Shown piece after piece: positions 1,049-8,228 of a stretch of 13,041 bases of DNA; the first letter of the stretch is position 1; the number at the start of each line of letters is the position of its first letter. This DNA comes from an uncultured Candidatus Melainabacteria bacterium (GTDB lineage Bacteria; Cyanobacteriota; Vampirovibrionia; Gastranaerophilales; Gastranaerophilaceae), in contig CAKUQA010000011.1 of the NCBI GenBank assembly GCA_934675225.1, positions 1 to 13,041 on the forward strand. The letters run 5' to 3'. A program made the position numbers and the translations under genes. The notes below the pieces were generated by a model, which searched no databases, was not told the DNA's origin, and saw only the letters and a list, made by a program, of their open reading frames with translations.

Positions 1049-2767
1049 CTATTTATACAAAGGAGCAAGTTTTGCGGACTGTTGCGGAATTACTCCTTCT
1101 TCAATTGATTGGTAAACTCTATAATCAATTGTAGGGAAGCAGTTGTCAATATTTTCGATTTCGCTTAATTTTGCTTCATCAATATTGCCGCTTTCAATCA
1201 TGTCACAAATTGTTTCAAATCTGTCAACATGTTCTCTAAATCTATCTGTTGCATAGTCCTTAGCCTGCCATGTTGTGATTAAGAAAGGCCAATCTGAACT
1301 TTGTAATAGTAGATTTTCTCTAGCCATTTGTTTTAATGCTCTTAATAAAAGCTTGTCCTCTGGAATTTCAGAATATTTATCTGCAATTGCGCAAATACGT
1401 TTTTCGCAAGCATGGATAATTGGCCACATCCATTCTGTTAAATGGTTGTTCCATACATAGAAGTGTCCGCCTTGTCCCCAAGAGCTTTCCGGAATTTGGA
1501 TAGCTTCTTTTGGAGGGTGAGAATGAACATATTCTCCTGCTGTCATTCTTTCTACTTCTGGAAGATATGTGTTGAATTTTTTGATTACTTGTTTGATAAA
1601 CTCAACACCTTCAAACCACCAGTGTCCAAATAATTCGGTATCAAATGAAACCATTACCAAACCTTCTTTACCGGTTGCTTTTTTGTAATCATTTAACATG
1701 TGGTAAATTAATGTTGTGTAATGATCAGAGTTTTCATTTACTTTGTTAAGAGCTAATACCGGATCATATAACATTTTGTCGCCTAAATCAGTTTTAGGTG
1801 AAGTAATTCTCCAGTAATGCATACCGGACTTAGCATCTTTTCTATGAAATTCTCTATATACACCATCCCCAGGGTAGCCGTCCGCTGCTGACCAAACTTG
1901 GTAGCCGGCTCTTTCGTTTCTTCCCATTACAGCAACTTGCGCATCAGGTAGCCAGTAAGCAGAATATGTATCATAACCTGTAGCTGGTCTATCAGGAAGC
2001 GGAATATATTCAATGTTGCCGTATACACCTATTACACGTCTGTTTCCGATAGAATTTCCTCCTTCGATTACGTGTGATTCTGTGAAGAAATATTCAATAT
2101 CATTGTTTTGAAGTGTTACTTCAATAGCAGGACGCCAATGTTTTTTGCCATCTTTGCCAACATATTCATATCCTTGTCTATATGCACATTCTGGTAACCA
2201 ACATCCGCATGCTTTTTTGCCAAATAATCTTTTAGTTGTATCAGAACCAACTTTAAATTGCGCGTTTAAGTTGCTGTCAGTAGCTAATAACGGAGAAAAT
2301 CCGTGAGTTGCTCCTGAAGTTGTTATTTCGATACAGCCAAGGTCTTGGAATTTTTTGAATTGAGCAATTAAGTCCATGCCATATTTATTAACAAAAGAAT
2401 CTTTTATGTTTGTGAACCAGTCAAAATAATATTTTGCTAGGTATTTTAAGTGTTGAGAATGAGGCACTTTGGGATCAGGATATCTATCCAAATCCTTAGA
2501 TACCTGCGCAATTCTGGAATCAACATATTTAACAAAACCTTCTTTAAGGTGTTGGTCATTAAGTTGTTCTGCAAGAATTGGTGTAATACCTACTGTTAAC
2601 TTAGCTTTAATTCCTTCGTCGTATAGTTCAGAAATTGCATTCAACAAAGGAATATAAGTTTCTGCCATACATTCATAAAGGTTTTCTTCCCCGAAAGGCC
2701 ACATTCCGGCTTTTCTGTAATAAGGAAGGTGGCTATGTAACATAAATACGAATTGTCCTACTGACAT
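1049..2767 (-). CDS. GH57 1,4-alpha-glucan branching enzyme
   Basis: A cytoplasmic glycoside hydrolase family 57 enzyme of about 572 residues, expected to form alpha-1,6 branches in glycogen (EC 2.4.1.18). From the start chosen here, HSHLPY lies near residues 11-16. The nucleophile is Glu193 in CWLPECAY. The acid/base is Asp376 in SFDTELFGHWWFEG, and the Glu/Trp-rich FGHWWFEG signature is typical of the branching-enzyme subgroup. A Trp-rich segment at about 430-448 and a helical C-terminal domain fit the DUF1957-type region. Length agrees with the family (roughly 520-700). An ATG exists four codons upstream (2779), but the bases coding for that stretch contain GGAGG, five bases before the ATG at 2767, so GGAGG is better read as the ribosome binding site. 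No other glycogen genes are adjacent. All key residues are present. Confidence 0.92.
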   Translation of the reverse strand: MSVGQFVFMLHSHLPYYRKAGMWPFGEENLYECMAETYIPLLNAISELYDEGIKAKLTVGITPILAEQLNDQHLKEGFVKYVDSRIAQVSKDLDRYPDPKVPHSQHLKYLAKYYFDWFTNIKDSFVNKYGMDLIAQFKKFQDLGCIEITTSGATHGFSPLLATDSNLNAQFKVGSDTTKRLFGKKACGCWLPECAYRQGYEYVGKDGKKHWRPAIEVTLQNNDIEYFFTESHVIEGGNSIGNRRVIGVYGNIEYIPLPDRPATGYDTYSAYWLPDAQVAVMGRNERAGYQVWSAADGYPGDGVYREFHRKDAKSGMHYWRITSPKTDLGDKMLYDPVLALNKVNENSDHYTTLIYHMLNDYKKATGKEGLVMVSFDTELFGHWWFEGVEFIKQVIKKFNTYLPEVERMTAGEYVHSHPPKEAIQIPESSWGQGGHFYVWNNHLTEWMWPIIHACEKRICAIADKYSEIPEDKLLLRALKQMARENLLLQSSDWPFLITTWQAKDYATDRFREHVDRFETICDMIESGNIDEAKLSEIENIDNCFPTIDYRVYQSIEEGVIPQQSAKLAPLYK

Positions 2768-2797
2768 TTGTGCCTCCATATCTTATTTAAACGAATT

Positions 2798-3332: not shown

Positions 3333-5132
3333 TTAGTTGAGTCTTTTCCAAGCTCCGTTTCTTTCAAGCATTACAACTCCATTGTTGTCAATAATACTTC
3401 TTTTTCCAAGCATTTTACCATTATCTCTAAAACCTTGTGGAATTTCTAATTGAGGATAAGTATTTCTTTTTTGAGGGCTTTCTGGTTTTGGTATCTGTTT
3501 ATCTAATTCTACTCTAGTTTTAGTAGTAGTTGTTGCTTGTTGAGTAACATTTTGAACTTGTTCTGATACTGTTTGGGGTGCGGTATTTTTTGCAGTAGTT
3601 TTTTGTTTTAGTCTTGAAATTGCGAATTGTGCAGATTTTTTCTTTAAATCCTCAAGAGGGCAAGTAATATCAATCCCACCGTTATATGGATTGTGATATG
3701 TTACCATTTTGGTTCGCGGATTGTAATCTACAAGAGTTCTGGCATGAGCTTCAAATGTTACCGTCCCCATATCGTCTTTTGAACTAAAGGTAGACAAAGT
3801 ATTTTCTAAATCTGCATATTGATTATTATTAATTATTTTTGTTGTAAATTTATTCTTGTCAAGAATCATGGCTGTAGCTTCTGTATCTAAGCCCATTCTA
3901 TTCTCTTCGGCATTTAATTTTTCAATACTACAATCTTCAATATTCGAAATAGGTGTTTTTTCAGCTAGTTGAATTCTGTTTGCTTGAACCGCTTGTTGTA
4001 ACATTTCAACCCCAGGAGCTCCACCTTCTTTTATTTGTTTAGCAGAATTTGTTTCCAATGGTTTTCCTTTAGGGAATGTTATTGGTTTATTACTATTAGG
4101 CAACAATATTTGAACGTCACCGTTAGGTAATTCCTTGAACATTGAATACAATTCAGCTTTACCTGTATTAGAACCTGTCATTGCGTTAATTCTTGATAAA
4201 ATCCAACAGTTGTTATTTGCTTTTTGCGAAGTCATTGCAAAGCCGCCTTGAGGGAACAATCTGTCAAAGGTTTCTCTTGATAGTTGTATTTCTTGAGCTG
4301 TACCATTGTTATTAACATATAGTTTTTGATTTGTGCCTGAACCAACCGCACAGACTTCTCCTGATTTTATGTAAGAATTTATATTATTTAAATCTATTTC
4401 AGAAGAAAATTCTTTGGCAATTGTAGGTGAGTTTAATTCTTCTTTTAATTTTCTTGAAATATGTACTGTTCCAGGGTCGCCTTCTTTGATTTGTTTTGAG
4501 ATGTTATTTTCAGCTTGTTTCATTAAATCACTTGGAGATAATTTTGTTTTTGAACGTCCAAATAAATTAGATGCGGAAAATTTGTGGAAGAAACTACCAC
4601 CTGCAAGCATTTCTCCATTTTCATTATAGATAGGAGAAATGTTTTTGGTTGCTACTGCGTTATTGTTATGTATTGTTGCTTTAGTTGTAGTAACTGATTT
4701 ATTAGTTGTTGTTTTAGAAGGTATTTGGGCTTTGAATGATTTTGTTTTGCCTTTTACTAATTTAACACTTTTACCAACACCTTTTAAGGTGCCTGATACT
4801 ACGGCTCCTCCGATTCCGCTCATTGCTGCATTTGAAATAATTCCTCTTGCGGTAACGTGCCCCGTTTCTACGTATTCTTGTGCGGCGCCCACACCGACAT
4901 CTCCTGTGGTATTTATTGCAGCTCTTGCTATTTTGGAGCCTGTTGACGCTCCTTTTACAGTTGTCAAAGCTACTTTGCCAACAGCACCACCAGCAAGAGT
5001 TGAAATATCATCAAATGCAGCGTTAGTCATTATCTTTGTATGGTCTGTACCTGCTCTAAAGTTTATTTTACCTTTAGTTACAGCATCTTTTACGTTTAAT
5101 CTGTCTGTTTCATCTATTGCCGCTGAAGCCAT
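3333..5132 (-). CDS. C-terminal portion of a calpain-like (C2) cysteine protease protein
   Basis: A 599-codon open frame, the downstream piece of a gene interrupted by a TGA at 5196-5198. Residues 40-125 are Gly/Ala-rich and hydrophobic, resembling pretoxin or membrane-active segments. Residues 130-250 are a low-complexity linker. The protease domain spans about 255-505. Cys309 sits in NNCWILS, the place of the calpain GDCW motif. His463 is in EAHAR. Asn481 is in HNPYNGG, the place of the calpain NPWG motif. GVEMLQQA at 374-381 matches the region before the second subdomain. A Thr/Gln-rich linker then leads to a small beta-rich tail. The ATG at 5132 has only a weak AGG upstream and is probably an internal Met rather than a native start. 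Active-site residues are intact, so the domain itself is not decayed. Substrate unknown. Confidence 0.72.
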   Translation of the reverse strand: MASAAIDETDRLNVKDAVTKGKINFRAGTDHTKIMTNAAFDDISTLAGGAVGKVALTTVKGASTGSKIARAAINTTGDVGVGAAQEYVETGHVTARGIISNAAMSGIGGAVVSGTLKGVGKSVKLVKGKTKSFKAQIPSKTTTNKSVTTTKATIHNNNAVATKNISPIYNENGEMLAGGSFFHKFSASNLFGRSKTKLSPSDLMKQAENNISKQIKEGDPGTVHISRKLKEELNSPTIAKEFSSEIDLNNINSYIKSGEVCAVGSGTNQKLYVNNNGTAQEIQLSRETFDRLFPQGGFAMTSQKANNNCWILSRINAMTGSNTGKAELYSMFKELPNGDVQILLPNSNKPITFPKGKPLETNSAKQIKEGGAPGVEMLQQAVQANRIQLAEKTPISNIEDCSIEKLNAEENRMGLDTEATAMILDKNKFTTKIINNNQYADLENTLSTFSSKDDMGTVTFEAHARTLVDYNPRTKMVTYHNPYNGGIDITCPLEDLKKKSAQFAISRLKQKTTAKNTAPQTVSEQVQNVTQQATTTTKTRVELDKQIPKPESPQKRNTYPQLEIPQGFRDNGKMLGKRSIIDNNGVVMLERNGAWKRLN

Positions 5133-5195
5133 AGTTGTACCTGCAGCTGTTAATAAAAGAGCTCCTGCTGTCCCTCCGGTAGCTACTGTTGCTGC

Positions 5196-5996
5196 TCAAA
5201 TTGCTAAACCTGCTCCGACTTTTGCGCTTGTTTTTACAACTTCTGCACCGGTTTGTTGTGATTTATTGTAATTTTTAACTCTTGCGTATATATTATTTTT
5301 TGTCCCAAAAACTTTTTCATAATTTTTTTGAGTTGGATTTTTTGCATATTCTGCCATGGCCTGTTGGTTAAAATCTTTGCCATAAATTTGTTTGAATTTG
5401 GCATTAAACTGAGCGTCTCCTTTTTTAGCCGCTTTTTGTAGGTCTTGAATATTTTTGTTGTATTCATTTAAGTCAACTCTTACTTTAGAAGCTCTATTAT
5501 CAGAACCCCATAATACACTTATTCCATCTGCTATATCACCTGCCCAACCGTCTTGAGAAAGTTGATGGTTAAAACTTTTTTGTGACGAAGCTAATTGCTT
5601 CTGCATTGTATTGATTGTTTCAGAGTGTGCTGTTTTGCTATTTGTTTTTATTGCGTTAATTTTGTTATTTTTTTTAATAACTTCTTTGTTTAAAAATGTG
5701 CCATCATGTGCAAGGATTTGATATTGACCTTTTGCATCTTTAACTATTTTTCTTCCGTTAGAAGCGTTTCCAACAAGAGTATATTCTTTACCTGTTTTTG
5801 ATTTTACTTTTGTGCCAGCTCCGTTTGTGTTAATTAATTCAAGGTCTTTTAATTCTTTGTTTTGAGGCTTCTTATCGGGGGGGGGTAGTTTATTTTTTTT
5901 TGGAGTTGAGTTGTTGTAAGTCGATTTATATTGTTTAGTAGCCCACTTATTATCGTTAAAAATTGAAGCAGCGGAGCTACCTTCTTTTTTTATCAT
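5196..5996 (-). CDS. N-terminal portion of the calpain-like protein, ending at a premature TGA
   Basis: A 266-residue open frame in the same reading frame as the calpain-like fragment, separated by one TGA and 21 sense codons. It is Asn/Lys-rich with a Pro/Lys stretch encoded by C9 and A9 tracts (codons 33-42). A short beta-type module follows at about 63-105 (KEYTLVGN ... GRKIVKD ... HDGTFLNK), then a helical region, ending in the Gly/Ala-rich KVGAGLAI that runs into the TGA. The ATG at 5996 has only GAGG about 13 bases upstream. The frame stays open for a further 24 codons 5' of it, and a much better ribosome binding site and ATG lie at 6069 in another frame, so this start is probably not native. 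No signal peptide is visible. Confidence 0.6.
   Translation of the reverse strand: MIKKEGSSAASIFNDNKWATKQYKSTYNNSTPKKNKLPPPDKKPQNKELKDLELINTNGAGTKVKSKTGKEYTLVGNASNGRKIVKDAKGQYQILAHDGTFLNKEVIKKNNKINAIKTNSKTAHSETINTMQKQLASSQKSFNHQLSQDGWAGDIADGISVLWGSDNRASKVRVDLNEYNKNIQDLQKAAKKGDAQFNAKFKQIYGKDFNQQAMAEYAKNPTQKNYEKVFGTKNNIYARVKNYNKSQQTGAEVVKTSAKVGAGLAI
5877..5885 (-). repeat. C9 homopolymer (G9 on plus strand) inside coding region
   Basis: Nine consecutive G on the plus strand encode three Pro codons (CCC) of the calpain-like protein. In such an AT-rich region a nine-base G/C run is exceptional, and it is the usual length and type of tract that changes by slipped-strand mispairing. Any change not divisible by three would stop translation of everything downstream. 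Confidence 0.85.
5893..5901 (-). repeat. A9 homopolymer (T9 on plus strand) beside the C9 tract
   Basis: Nine T on the plus strand, read as the A run in Pro-Lys-Lys-Asn codons, lie only seven bases from the C9 tract in the same gene. Long A runs are common in AT-rich DNA, so alone it means little. Paired with the C9 tract it adds a second slippage site. Confidence 0.8.
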
Positions 5997-6192
5997 TGAT
6001 ACTACTGCCTCATCAGTGATAATAGGTGCGATTTTATGCTTTTTTCTGTGTATTAAGTGATATTCCCATTAATTTCCTTTCTTCTACTAATTTACTTAAT
6101 ATTGTGTACGGAATGTTTATCAAAAAAAATTAGTAAAAAAATGATTCTGTTAATAATTCTTTACAAATTGGTTGAGAATCGTAAAATATGGG

Positions 6193-6291: not shown

Positions 6292-6561
6292 ATGGCAAAT
6301 ATTAAATCTGCTAAAAAAAGAGTATTAATCGCTGAAAGAAACAGATTGAGAAACCAAGCATTCAAAACATCTATTAAAACAGCAGTTAAGAAAGTATTAG
6401 AACTTGCAAAAGCTGAAGATAAAGACGCTTTGAATTCAGCATTATCAAAAGCATATCAATTATGTGATAAAGCTGTTTCAAAAGGTGTTTTGCACAAAAA
6501 TACAGCTGCAAGAAAAAAATCTAGATTAACTAAAGCAGTAAATAAATTACAAGCTAAATAG
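6292..6561 (+). CDS. rpsT: 30S ribosomal protein S20
   Basis: An 89-residue, very basic, all-helical protein that binds 16S rRNA in the small subunit. The N-terminal MANIKSAKKRVLIAERNRLRN and the later HKNTAARKKSRL segment are characteristic of S20, and the length is typical. AGAAAGG lies nine bases before the ATG. The gene has its own promoter and leader upstream and a strong terminator downstream, so it is a single-gene unit, which is usual for rpsT. It is transcribed divergently from the calpain-like locus. Stop codon is TAG. Confidence 0.97.
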   Translation: MANIKSAKKRVLIAERNRLRNQAFKTSIKTAVKKVLELAKAEDKDALNSALSKAYQLCDKAVSKGVLHKNTAARKKSRLTKAVNKLQAK

Positions 6562-7433: not shown

Positions 7434-8228
7434 ATGCAGGATAATTTAGAGAGAAAACAAATAAAAAATATCGATTTTAATATTGATTTAGCTCAAAGTT
7501 TTGGAATTTATAAAAATAATACAGAGTTTGATTTATTGGATTATGCAAGTTCTGTAAATATTTCTTGCGGATTTCATGCAGGAGATCCGTTGACTATTCG
7601 TAATGCTTTGTTAAAAGCTAAAGAAAAAAATGTTGTTGTAGGTGCTCATATCGGTTTTGATGATATTCAAGGGTTTGGGTATCGCGATATGGACTTGGAT
7701 GAGGATGAAATAGAAGCTCTTGTTGTATATCAAGTTGGTGCTTTGATGTCTTTTGCAAAATCTATGAATATGGAAATTGAACATGTTCGTCCTCATGGAG
7801 CGATGTATAAAAGATGTGCGGAAGATTTTTCTTTTGCTTGTTCTGTTGCTAAAGCAATTCGCAAGTGCTCGGAATGGCTCGTTTATTATGGCGCTACCGG
7901 TGAAATTACAGAAAAAACAGGCGAATTAATAAATATTCCGGTTGCGCATGAAGTTTGTTTGGAAAAAATGTATAATGTTGATGGTACGGTTAATTCTGTT
8001 GCCAGAGATAACGAAAATACGGATGTAGAAATACAGCGCTTGAAACAGTTGTTAGCTACGTCTCAGGTTTCAAACATTGAGGGTGGAAAAACTATTGTAA
8101 AAGCTGATACAATCCATTTTACAAACAGACTTTCTAACTCATTGGAGTTAATAAAACAGGCACATAGAGTAACAACTCCGGTTCCTGTTAATTATAAAAA
8201 TGCTTGTTTGTCAGGTTGGGTAGAATAG
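7434..8228 (+). CDS. Divergent LamB/YcsF (PxpA-like) family protein
   Basis: A 264-residue cytoplasmic protein of the LamB/YcsF family, whose best known member is PxpA, subunit A of 5-oxoprolinase. The N-terminal half is clear: NIDLAQSFG (16-24), CGFHAGDP (45-52), GAHIGFDDIQGFG (70-82) and RPHGAMY (119-125). Departures are that the usual DLGES reads DLAQS, that the EVFADR-type motif is replaced by HEVCLEKMY (172-180), and that the C-terminal VHGD motif is absent, with VKADTIHF in its place. The partner genes pxpB and pxpC are not in the window. 5-oxoproline cleavage is therefore uncertain. The ATG at 7434 is chosen for its AGGA at eight bases; an ATG at 7428 is too close to it. The stop lies 13 bp before yvcK, indicating an operon. 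Confidence 0.82.
   Translation: MQDNLERKQIKNIDFNIDLAQSFGIYKNNTEFDLLDYASSVNISCGFHAGDPLTIRNALLKAKEKNVVVGAHIGFDDIQGFGYRDMDLDEDEIEALVVYQVGALMSFAKSMNMEIEHVRPHGAMYKRCAEDFSFACSVAKAIRKCSEWLVYYGATGEITEKTGELINIPVAHEVCLEKMYNVDGTVNSVARDNENTDVEIQRLKQLLATSQVSNIEGGKTIVKADTIHFTNRLSNSLELIKQAHRVTTPVPVNYKNACLSGWVE

Follow-up and report, generated by a model that had tools for sequence, protein, structure and literature searches.

In a 13,041-base stretch of DNA from an uncultured Candidatus Melainabacteria bacterium (the window), we found a calpain-like gene that carries a run of nine C and is broken at two other places. This bacterium falls in the Gastranaerophilales, which are gut, non-photosynthetic Cyanobacteria, and most of its near relatives carry many C-flanked G-tracts, mainly in prepilin-like genes. 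The reading we favour, and hold to be fairly probable, joins two layers: a window gene that has decayed independently of its tract, and, in the relatives, a poly-G phasome of prepilin-like genes whose commonest tract length would be the OFF state.

The calpain-like gene and its C9 tract

The features of the window are as follows.

5877 to 5885, minus strand: C9 tract (G9 on the plus strand), in the variable linker of the calpain-like gene
5893 to 5901, minus strand: A9 tract (T9 on the plus strand), at chance level
6067 to 6069, minus strand: natural start codon with leader MGISLN..., preceded by AAAGGAAAT; its own frame meets a stop within 12 codons
6037 to 6050, minus strand: frame break between start and body, with sequence missing relative to the homologue P0006
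5199 to 5996, minus strand: N-terminal piece, 266 aa from an internal ATG (5996)
5196 to 5198, minus strand: premature TGA, at a position taken by glycine in 7 of 7 homologues (judged by eye)
3333 to 5132, minus strand: papain/calpain-like C-terminal piece of 599 aa, in which Cys309 and His463 are invariant
4206 to 4208, minus strand: codon of the invariant Cys309 in NNCW, candidate nucleophile
6292 to 6561, plus strand: presumed rpsT (S20); conserved flank, used for synteny
1049 to 2779, minus strand: GH57 branching-enzyme-like gene, the other conserved flank

The initial annotation had drawn attention to the C9 and A9 tracts together as a candidate contingency locus, and both had been placed exactly, at 5877-5885 and 5893-5901. 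The nine-base run is as unusual as it had proposed, being the sole G/C run longer than 5 in the window, where GC is 32%. Under a first-order Markov model of the window, the expected number of runs of at least 9 was ~0.002 for G and ~0.001 for C, compared with ~2.4 for T and ~1.8 for A, and a further T9 was found at 143-151. Because about 0.003 G/C runs but about four A/T runs are expected per window, the C9 tract is remarkable and the A9 tract is not, so that only the first half of the proposed joint signal rises far above chance.

We found that the ORFs at 5196-5996 and 3333-5132 on the minus strand form a single gene in a single frame, split by the TGA at 5198-5196. The close homologue P0006 begins MGISLN..., and the same start is present in the window at 6069 in a frame that differs from that of the body, with residues 1-11 of P0006 corresponding to 6069-6037 and residues 16-152 running from 6050 in another frame. 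The window gene is therefore broken twice, since its start is out of frame with its body and a TGA stands for a glycine. The frame is maintained across the C9 tract, and the earlier statement that it is open at the present length was locally true, from the ATG at 5996 to the TGA at 5198-5196, but failed for the whole gene, whose natural start lies upstream in the other frame and whose remainder is the 599-aa ORF. A tract of a potentially hypermutable type (G9/C9 at 5877-5885) is present in the 5' part of the gene, and the gene is not intact, as that of a contingency locus should be, in either its start frame or its body.

Cys309 and His463 were invariant in 19 aligned family members and are probably catalytic, and from this invariance a papain/calpain-like fold may be predicted. 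A Pfam scan of the two window pieces gave no match to a protease model and no good match at all, and the N-terminal half matched no Pfam family above cut-off. Among seven relatives scanned, one (P0039) passed the cut-off of Peptidase_C2 (PF00648). The likeness to calpain/papain-like cysteine proteases thus lies in the invariant Cys and His and in P0039, whereas the window pieces themselves match no Pfam protease model.

An alignment query against genome contigs returned 33 related loci, 19 of them titled Gastranaerophilales or Gastranaerophilus and 4 more Melainabacteria or Cyanobacteria. The same contigs searched with the C-terminal piece alone, and viral contigs, yielded no related loci. Two distant family members, L028 and L032, came from records titled Muribaculaceae and Fusobacterium, which may be mis-binned contigs or cases of transfer.

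With one genome per species compared, rpsT and the GH57 gene were both present on 23 of 38 pieces from relatives, and the calpain-like gene stood between them in four of these 23 (G001, G002, G003 and G031) and was not detected in that interval in the other 19. The gene is thus accessory and has a constant location, the rpsT-GH57 interval (3333-6069 in the window). All four syntenic orthologues were open over their full length, and the linker varied in length and sequence; the copy in G031 has a C-terminal part unlike that of the window. No G/C run of at least 7 occurred in any of these four (the linker of G002 has G6), and the C-tract was absent from P0006, the closest N-terminal homologue protein. 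A tract kept with varying length among relatives, which the initial annotation had led us to look for, was accordingly found in 0 of 4 syntenic orthologues. Since the gene is broken at two tract-independent places and its orthologues are tract-free, the window tract is no working switch: the broken start region and the premature TGA, as read from the DNA, would already silence the gene, and the tract does not appear to switch it now.

Two further observations concern the same neighbourhood. In G050 the rpsT-GH57 interval is occupied by a prepilin-like gene with a G10 tract. Beside the GH57 gene, the window contains a transglutaminase-like ORF at 244-999 (PF01841, E 0.0024, below cut-off), with matches of 25-51% identity near GH57 in several relatives.

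Number, length and strand of G-tracts in relatives

A search for G/C runs of at least 8, which the initial annotation had proposed for the genome itself, found many when carried out in the genomes of relatives. A G8 search of the ten closest genomes gave from 36 (G142) to 540 (G050) matches, counted as overlapping 8-mers. The 800 kb sampled from G050 and G039 contained 65 G/C runs of at least 8, comprising 61 of exactly 10, 3 of 11 and 1 of 8, and none of 7 or 9. Whole-genome length counts, taken over 65 genomes, showed many more long tracts than expected by chance, and in most genomes close to that of the window G10 outnumbered G9. Tracts of exactly 10 numbered 169 in G050, 126 in G169, 97 in G002, 91 in G031, 73 each in G039 and G044, and 65 in G281; tracts of exactly 9 numbered 0, 11, 9 and 2 in G050, G169, G002 and G039, respectively. 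In a second group G9 was modal (48 G9 and 14 G10 in G118, 45 and 4 in G283, with 43 and 28 G9 in G061 and G064). A G8 check of 15 genomes suggested a mode of 11 in G122 and G127, the length of 17 of 25 sampled tracts, and found no G8 in four similar-size relatives (G084, G016, G026 and G189). Near relatives with few or none were G142 (8 G10) and G095 (no G9 or G10). Most near relatives thus carry tens to ~170 G-tracts per genome, with one clade-specific length dominant.

The flanks of these tracts were also nearly fixed, with C in ~98% before and 95% after the tract in the G10 group (98 tracts). The window tract reads TC-G9-T, with T replacing C on one side and 9 rather than 10 G, and its flank score was equally low in only 2 of 98 true tract flanks and equally good in 4.6% of random sites; as a canonical tract flank it is therefore weak, and so is the membership of the window tract in the G-tract class of the relatives. 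The window G9 lies on the same strand as the YvcK-PanC block, as do 13 of 14 tracts of at least 8 on the syntenic pieces (the exception is in G199). The window tract, with its atypical flank, probably either arose singly or belongs to this lineage-wide class in decayed form, and within the prepilin G-tract class it would be at best a decayed or atypical member. Decay of a class member is conceivable in a dead gene, and an unrelated origin is just as likely.

The tracts were strongly polar. On three contig stretches, G was on one strand in 28/28, 17/17 and 19/19 tracts. In G001 the tract strand, at the places listed, flips once within contig C1 and once within C2, and in the fetched pieces the sign of the GC skew also changes across the flips, with exceptions in C2 (two plus-tract pieces with slightly negative skew and one minus-tract piece with slightly positive skew). 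Across 20-kb pieces, G lay on the G-rich strand in 125 of 141 tracts, the other 16 disagreeing with the local skew, and on the strand with more coding in 97 of 141. Polarity was also broken in G118, where some G11-G12 prepilin tracts had the opposite orientation, and in G100, whose A/T-flanked tracts lie on both strands.

The tracts of G100 were seen in piece L176 (G100:C6:71000-81000), where G8-G9 tracts with A/T-rich flanks occur on both strands at 1567, 2611, 6908 and 8090, beside or in genes for a short-chain dehydrogenase, a TPP enzyme and a weak sulfotransferase match; in this more distantly related genome they resemble contingency loci of the classical type. In pieces L200-L219 of G122 and G127, tracts of 11-12 G occur in dispersed repeating sequences, for example ...actgagttttgc[G11]tgccaaactctaagcccc..., and for most of them no prepilin leader was recognised.

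Prepilin-like genes and their reading frames

An open frame beside the tract carried the motif FTLAEVLITLGIIG, a putative prepilin N-terminal cleavage/methylation motif, at 56 of 64 tracts in G050 and G039 and at 29 of 37 in G118 and G064. The 800-kb sample contained 73 prepilin-like ORFs, and 57 of them had a tract upstream in the open frame. Two of the proteins matched Pfam N_methyl below cut-off (E 0.0022-0.0025) and several database homologues carry PF07963, which together with the motif suggest that the genes are prepilin-like. Their leaders mostly begin with an ATG after a Shine-Dalgarno-like sequence and then run into the tract, reading through it as G (poly-Gly) or C (poly-Pro), with G constant on the same replication strand; poly-C was in the coding strand of 23 of 131 prepilin tracts.

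We evaluated the frame between leader and body at these 131 prepilin tracts, from pieces of 16 genomes, choosing the leader start by rule (with a Shine-Dalgarno-like sequence, nearest 27 bases upstream). Among the 120 tracts at their assigned modal length (9, 10 or 11), 116 shared one single-base offset, 4 were in frame and none had the other offset. The 11 off-modal tracts were mixed (5 in frame, 3 with the same offset as modal tracts, 3 with another). With starts chosen by this rule, tract length sets the leader-to-body frame, and the counts are non-independent because many tracts are paralogues. Eight tracts of G050 were not in prepilin genes; five of these lay in coding frames, and four of the five were in frame at ten, which speaks against the loss of a base during assembly. 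Extension of the frame rule to the G11-modal genomes failed, since 21 of 25 tracts of G122 and G127 had no prepilin motif and the other 4 had the motif but no usable start.

In-frame forms were present among public proteins. One prepilin query matched 5200 proteins, and among the best 120 of these, 24 had at least 6 residues before a GGG or PPP stretch followed by the prepilin motif, including P0159, P0131, P0113 and P0088, whose leaders are like those in the DNA. Because these 24 join leader, GGG/PPP stretch and motif, in-frame alleles exist across public proteins. A further 23 of the best 120 start at most 5 residues from the stretch, probably as a gene caller's rendering of an out-of-frame leader, and 73 lacked such a stretch or were called inside the body.

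These results are consistent with a mechanism in which a C-flanked G9 or G10 tract separates an ATG leader from a prepilin-like body, and slipped-strand mispairing at replication would add or remove a G. At the commonest length the leader would fall short of the prepilin frame by one base (OFF), and added length would join the two (ON), so that only a minority of cells might express a given prepilin, presumably at the surface. Free slippage is opposed by a length distribution sharper than that of Campylobacter and by the prevalence of a single offset in two clades that differ in modal length; metagenome assemblies would report the commonest length, and part of the sharpness may follow from this. 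Loss of mismatch repair was not supported, as 18 of 18 genomes had a match to MutS (MutS_I). Pairing of the flanks into a hairpin (Shine-Dalgarno against GCTCC) was rejected, since own flanks paired no better than swapped ones (91 and 38 tracts). In the G122 and G127 sets (14 and 10 tracts) the difference in mean stem between own and swapped flanks was nil or slight, with stems of at least 7 in 5/14 versus 18% and in 2/10 versus 7%, respectively.

A bolder form of this proposal, which we regard as doubtful, is that gut Gastranaerophilales keep tens to well over 100 mostly prepilin-type genes, across the genome and polar to the replication strand, at one exact tract length that puts nearly all of them one base out of frame. 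Their expression would then come from directed length change or a programmed slip rather than random drift, and such a regulated repertoire, OFF by default, would differ from the contingency sets known so far.

Programmed recoding would account for the same frames at the level of expression: the ribosome would slip back one base, or RNA polymerase would add one, and this would set a low prepilin fraction, with tract length under selection. The very sharp length distribution and the single offset in 116 of 120 tracts, in clades modal at 9 and at 10, would suit it well. We nevertheless consider it unlikely, as polarity follows the replication strand whatever the orientation of the gene, which places a G run in some mRNAs and a C run in others, in-frame alleles occur among public proteins, and no stem is common to the tract flanks. 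A DNA-level cause is favoured because of the replication polarity. Such polarity, which flips once in each of two contigs, would also be expected if C-G10-C were a replication-strand-oriented signal of the segregation, recombination or uptake type and its leader position were secondary, and the near-fixed C flanks and some non-coding copies fit this as well. We hold this to be improbable, since the presence of a tract at 57 of 73 prepilin-like ORFs in the 800-kb sample makes placement strongly gene-specific, and a signal of this kind would not be expected to obey a frame rule.

It is just as improbable that the window gene is itself a true calpain-like protease contingency locus whose other two lesions are assembly errors. 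The frame kept across C9 favours this, as do relatives in the family: in L008 a G12 tract (7939-7950) divides a calpain-family gene into open frames of 306 aa (measured from a stop codon to slightly beyond the tract) and 828 aa, and in L010 and L016 tracts lie inside the open frame of family members. Against it stand the tract-free orthologues and the lack of enrichment in the family, where calpain genes as a favoured site were not supported by 3 runs in 166 kb of genes versus 6 in 299 kb of flanks (33 loci). The database cluster P0015, which contains the 599-aa piece, has 3 members on 3 contigs and supports a real TGA weakly, because its members were grouped at 90% identity and could count the window among them. 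Since L008 is split by G12 with both sides open, a calpain-like switch is possible elsewhere in the order and unlikely in the window. The proposal of the window gene as a phase-variable locus was thus not borne out, given two breaks, a tract missing from 4 of 4 orthologues and P0006, and an unenriched family; for phase variation in the lineage it fared better, as most near relatives have many contingency-like poly-G tracts, albeit mainly in prepilin-like genes.

That the tracts are assembly or base-calling artefacts, such as filled gaps or bases lost in G runs, is barely credible even for sources that are probably metagenome assemblies, given the near-fixed C flanks, strand flips inside contigs, modal lengths that differ by clade, same-length non-prepilin tracts in frame, and tracts in contigs of different naming schemes, NODE (L002, L012) and k127 (L010).

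Comparison with known phase-variable systems

If the preferred reading of a decayed window gene and a prepilin phasome is right, gut bacteria known mostly from metagenomes would have a very large repertoire of switchable surface-filament genes, silent by default through exact G-tract length. Gene callers applied to metagenome assemblies may also miscall tract-bearing prepilins as truncated. The polarity and fixed offset make it testable whether replication sets both tract length and the direction of its change. A limited literature search found no paper on phase variation in Gastranaerophilales, nothing on this order for poly-G tracts, pilin, gut metagenomes or prepilin in titles and the starts of abstracts, and nothing on poly-G tract phase variation with the leading strand; a paper on Melainabacteria and phase variation concerned flagellins. 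Strand polarity and one fixed offset are not known from other phasomes. Poly-G contingency as such is a known kind of system; what is new here is its scale, the polarity of the strands, the sharpness of the modal length and the offset shared by the tracts, and the novelty possibly goes further.

In a PhasomeIt survey of Campylobacter (PMC6321876), the median for one species was 20 tracts, with 9G at 53% and 10G at 26%. The likeness lies in long G-tracts that are mostly within ORFs and whose length sets the frame; by comparison, most near relatives here have tens to ~170 modal-length tracts with one dominant length, and their commonest length would be OFF with one offset, with strand polarity and poly-C in 23 of 131 prepilin tracts. 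For N. meningitidis, 115 phase-variable genes are reported (PMC5084427). Neisseria resembles the present case in its large set of simple-repeat switches, whereas here there is mainly one tract type in mostly one kind of gene, the prepilin-like genes.
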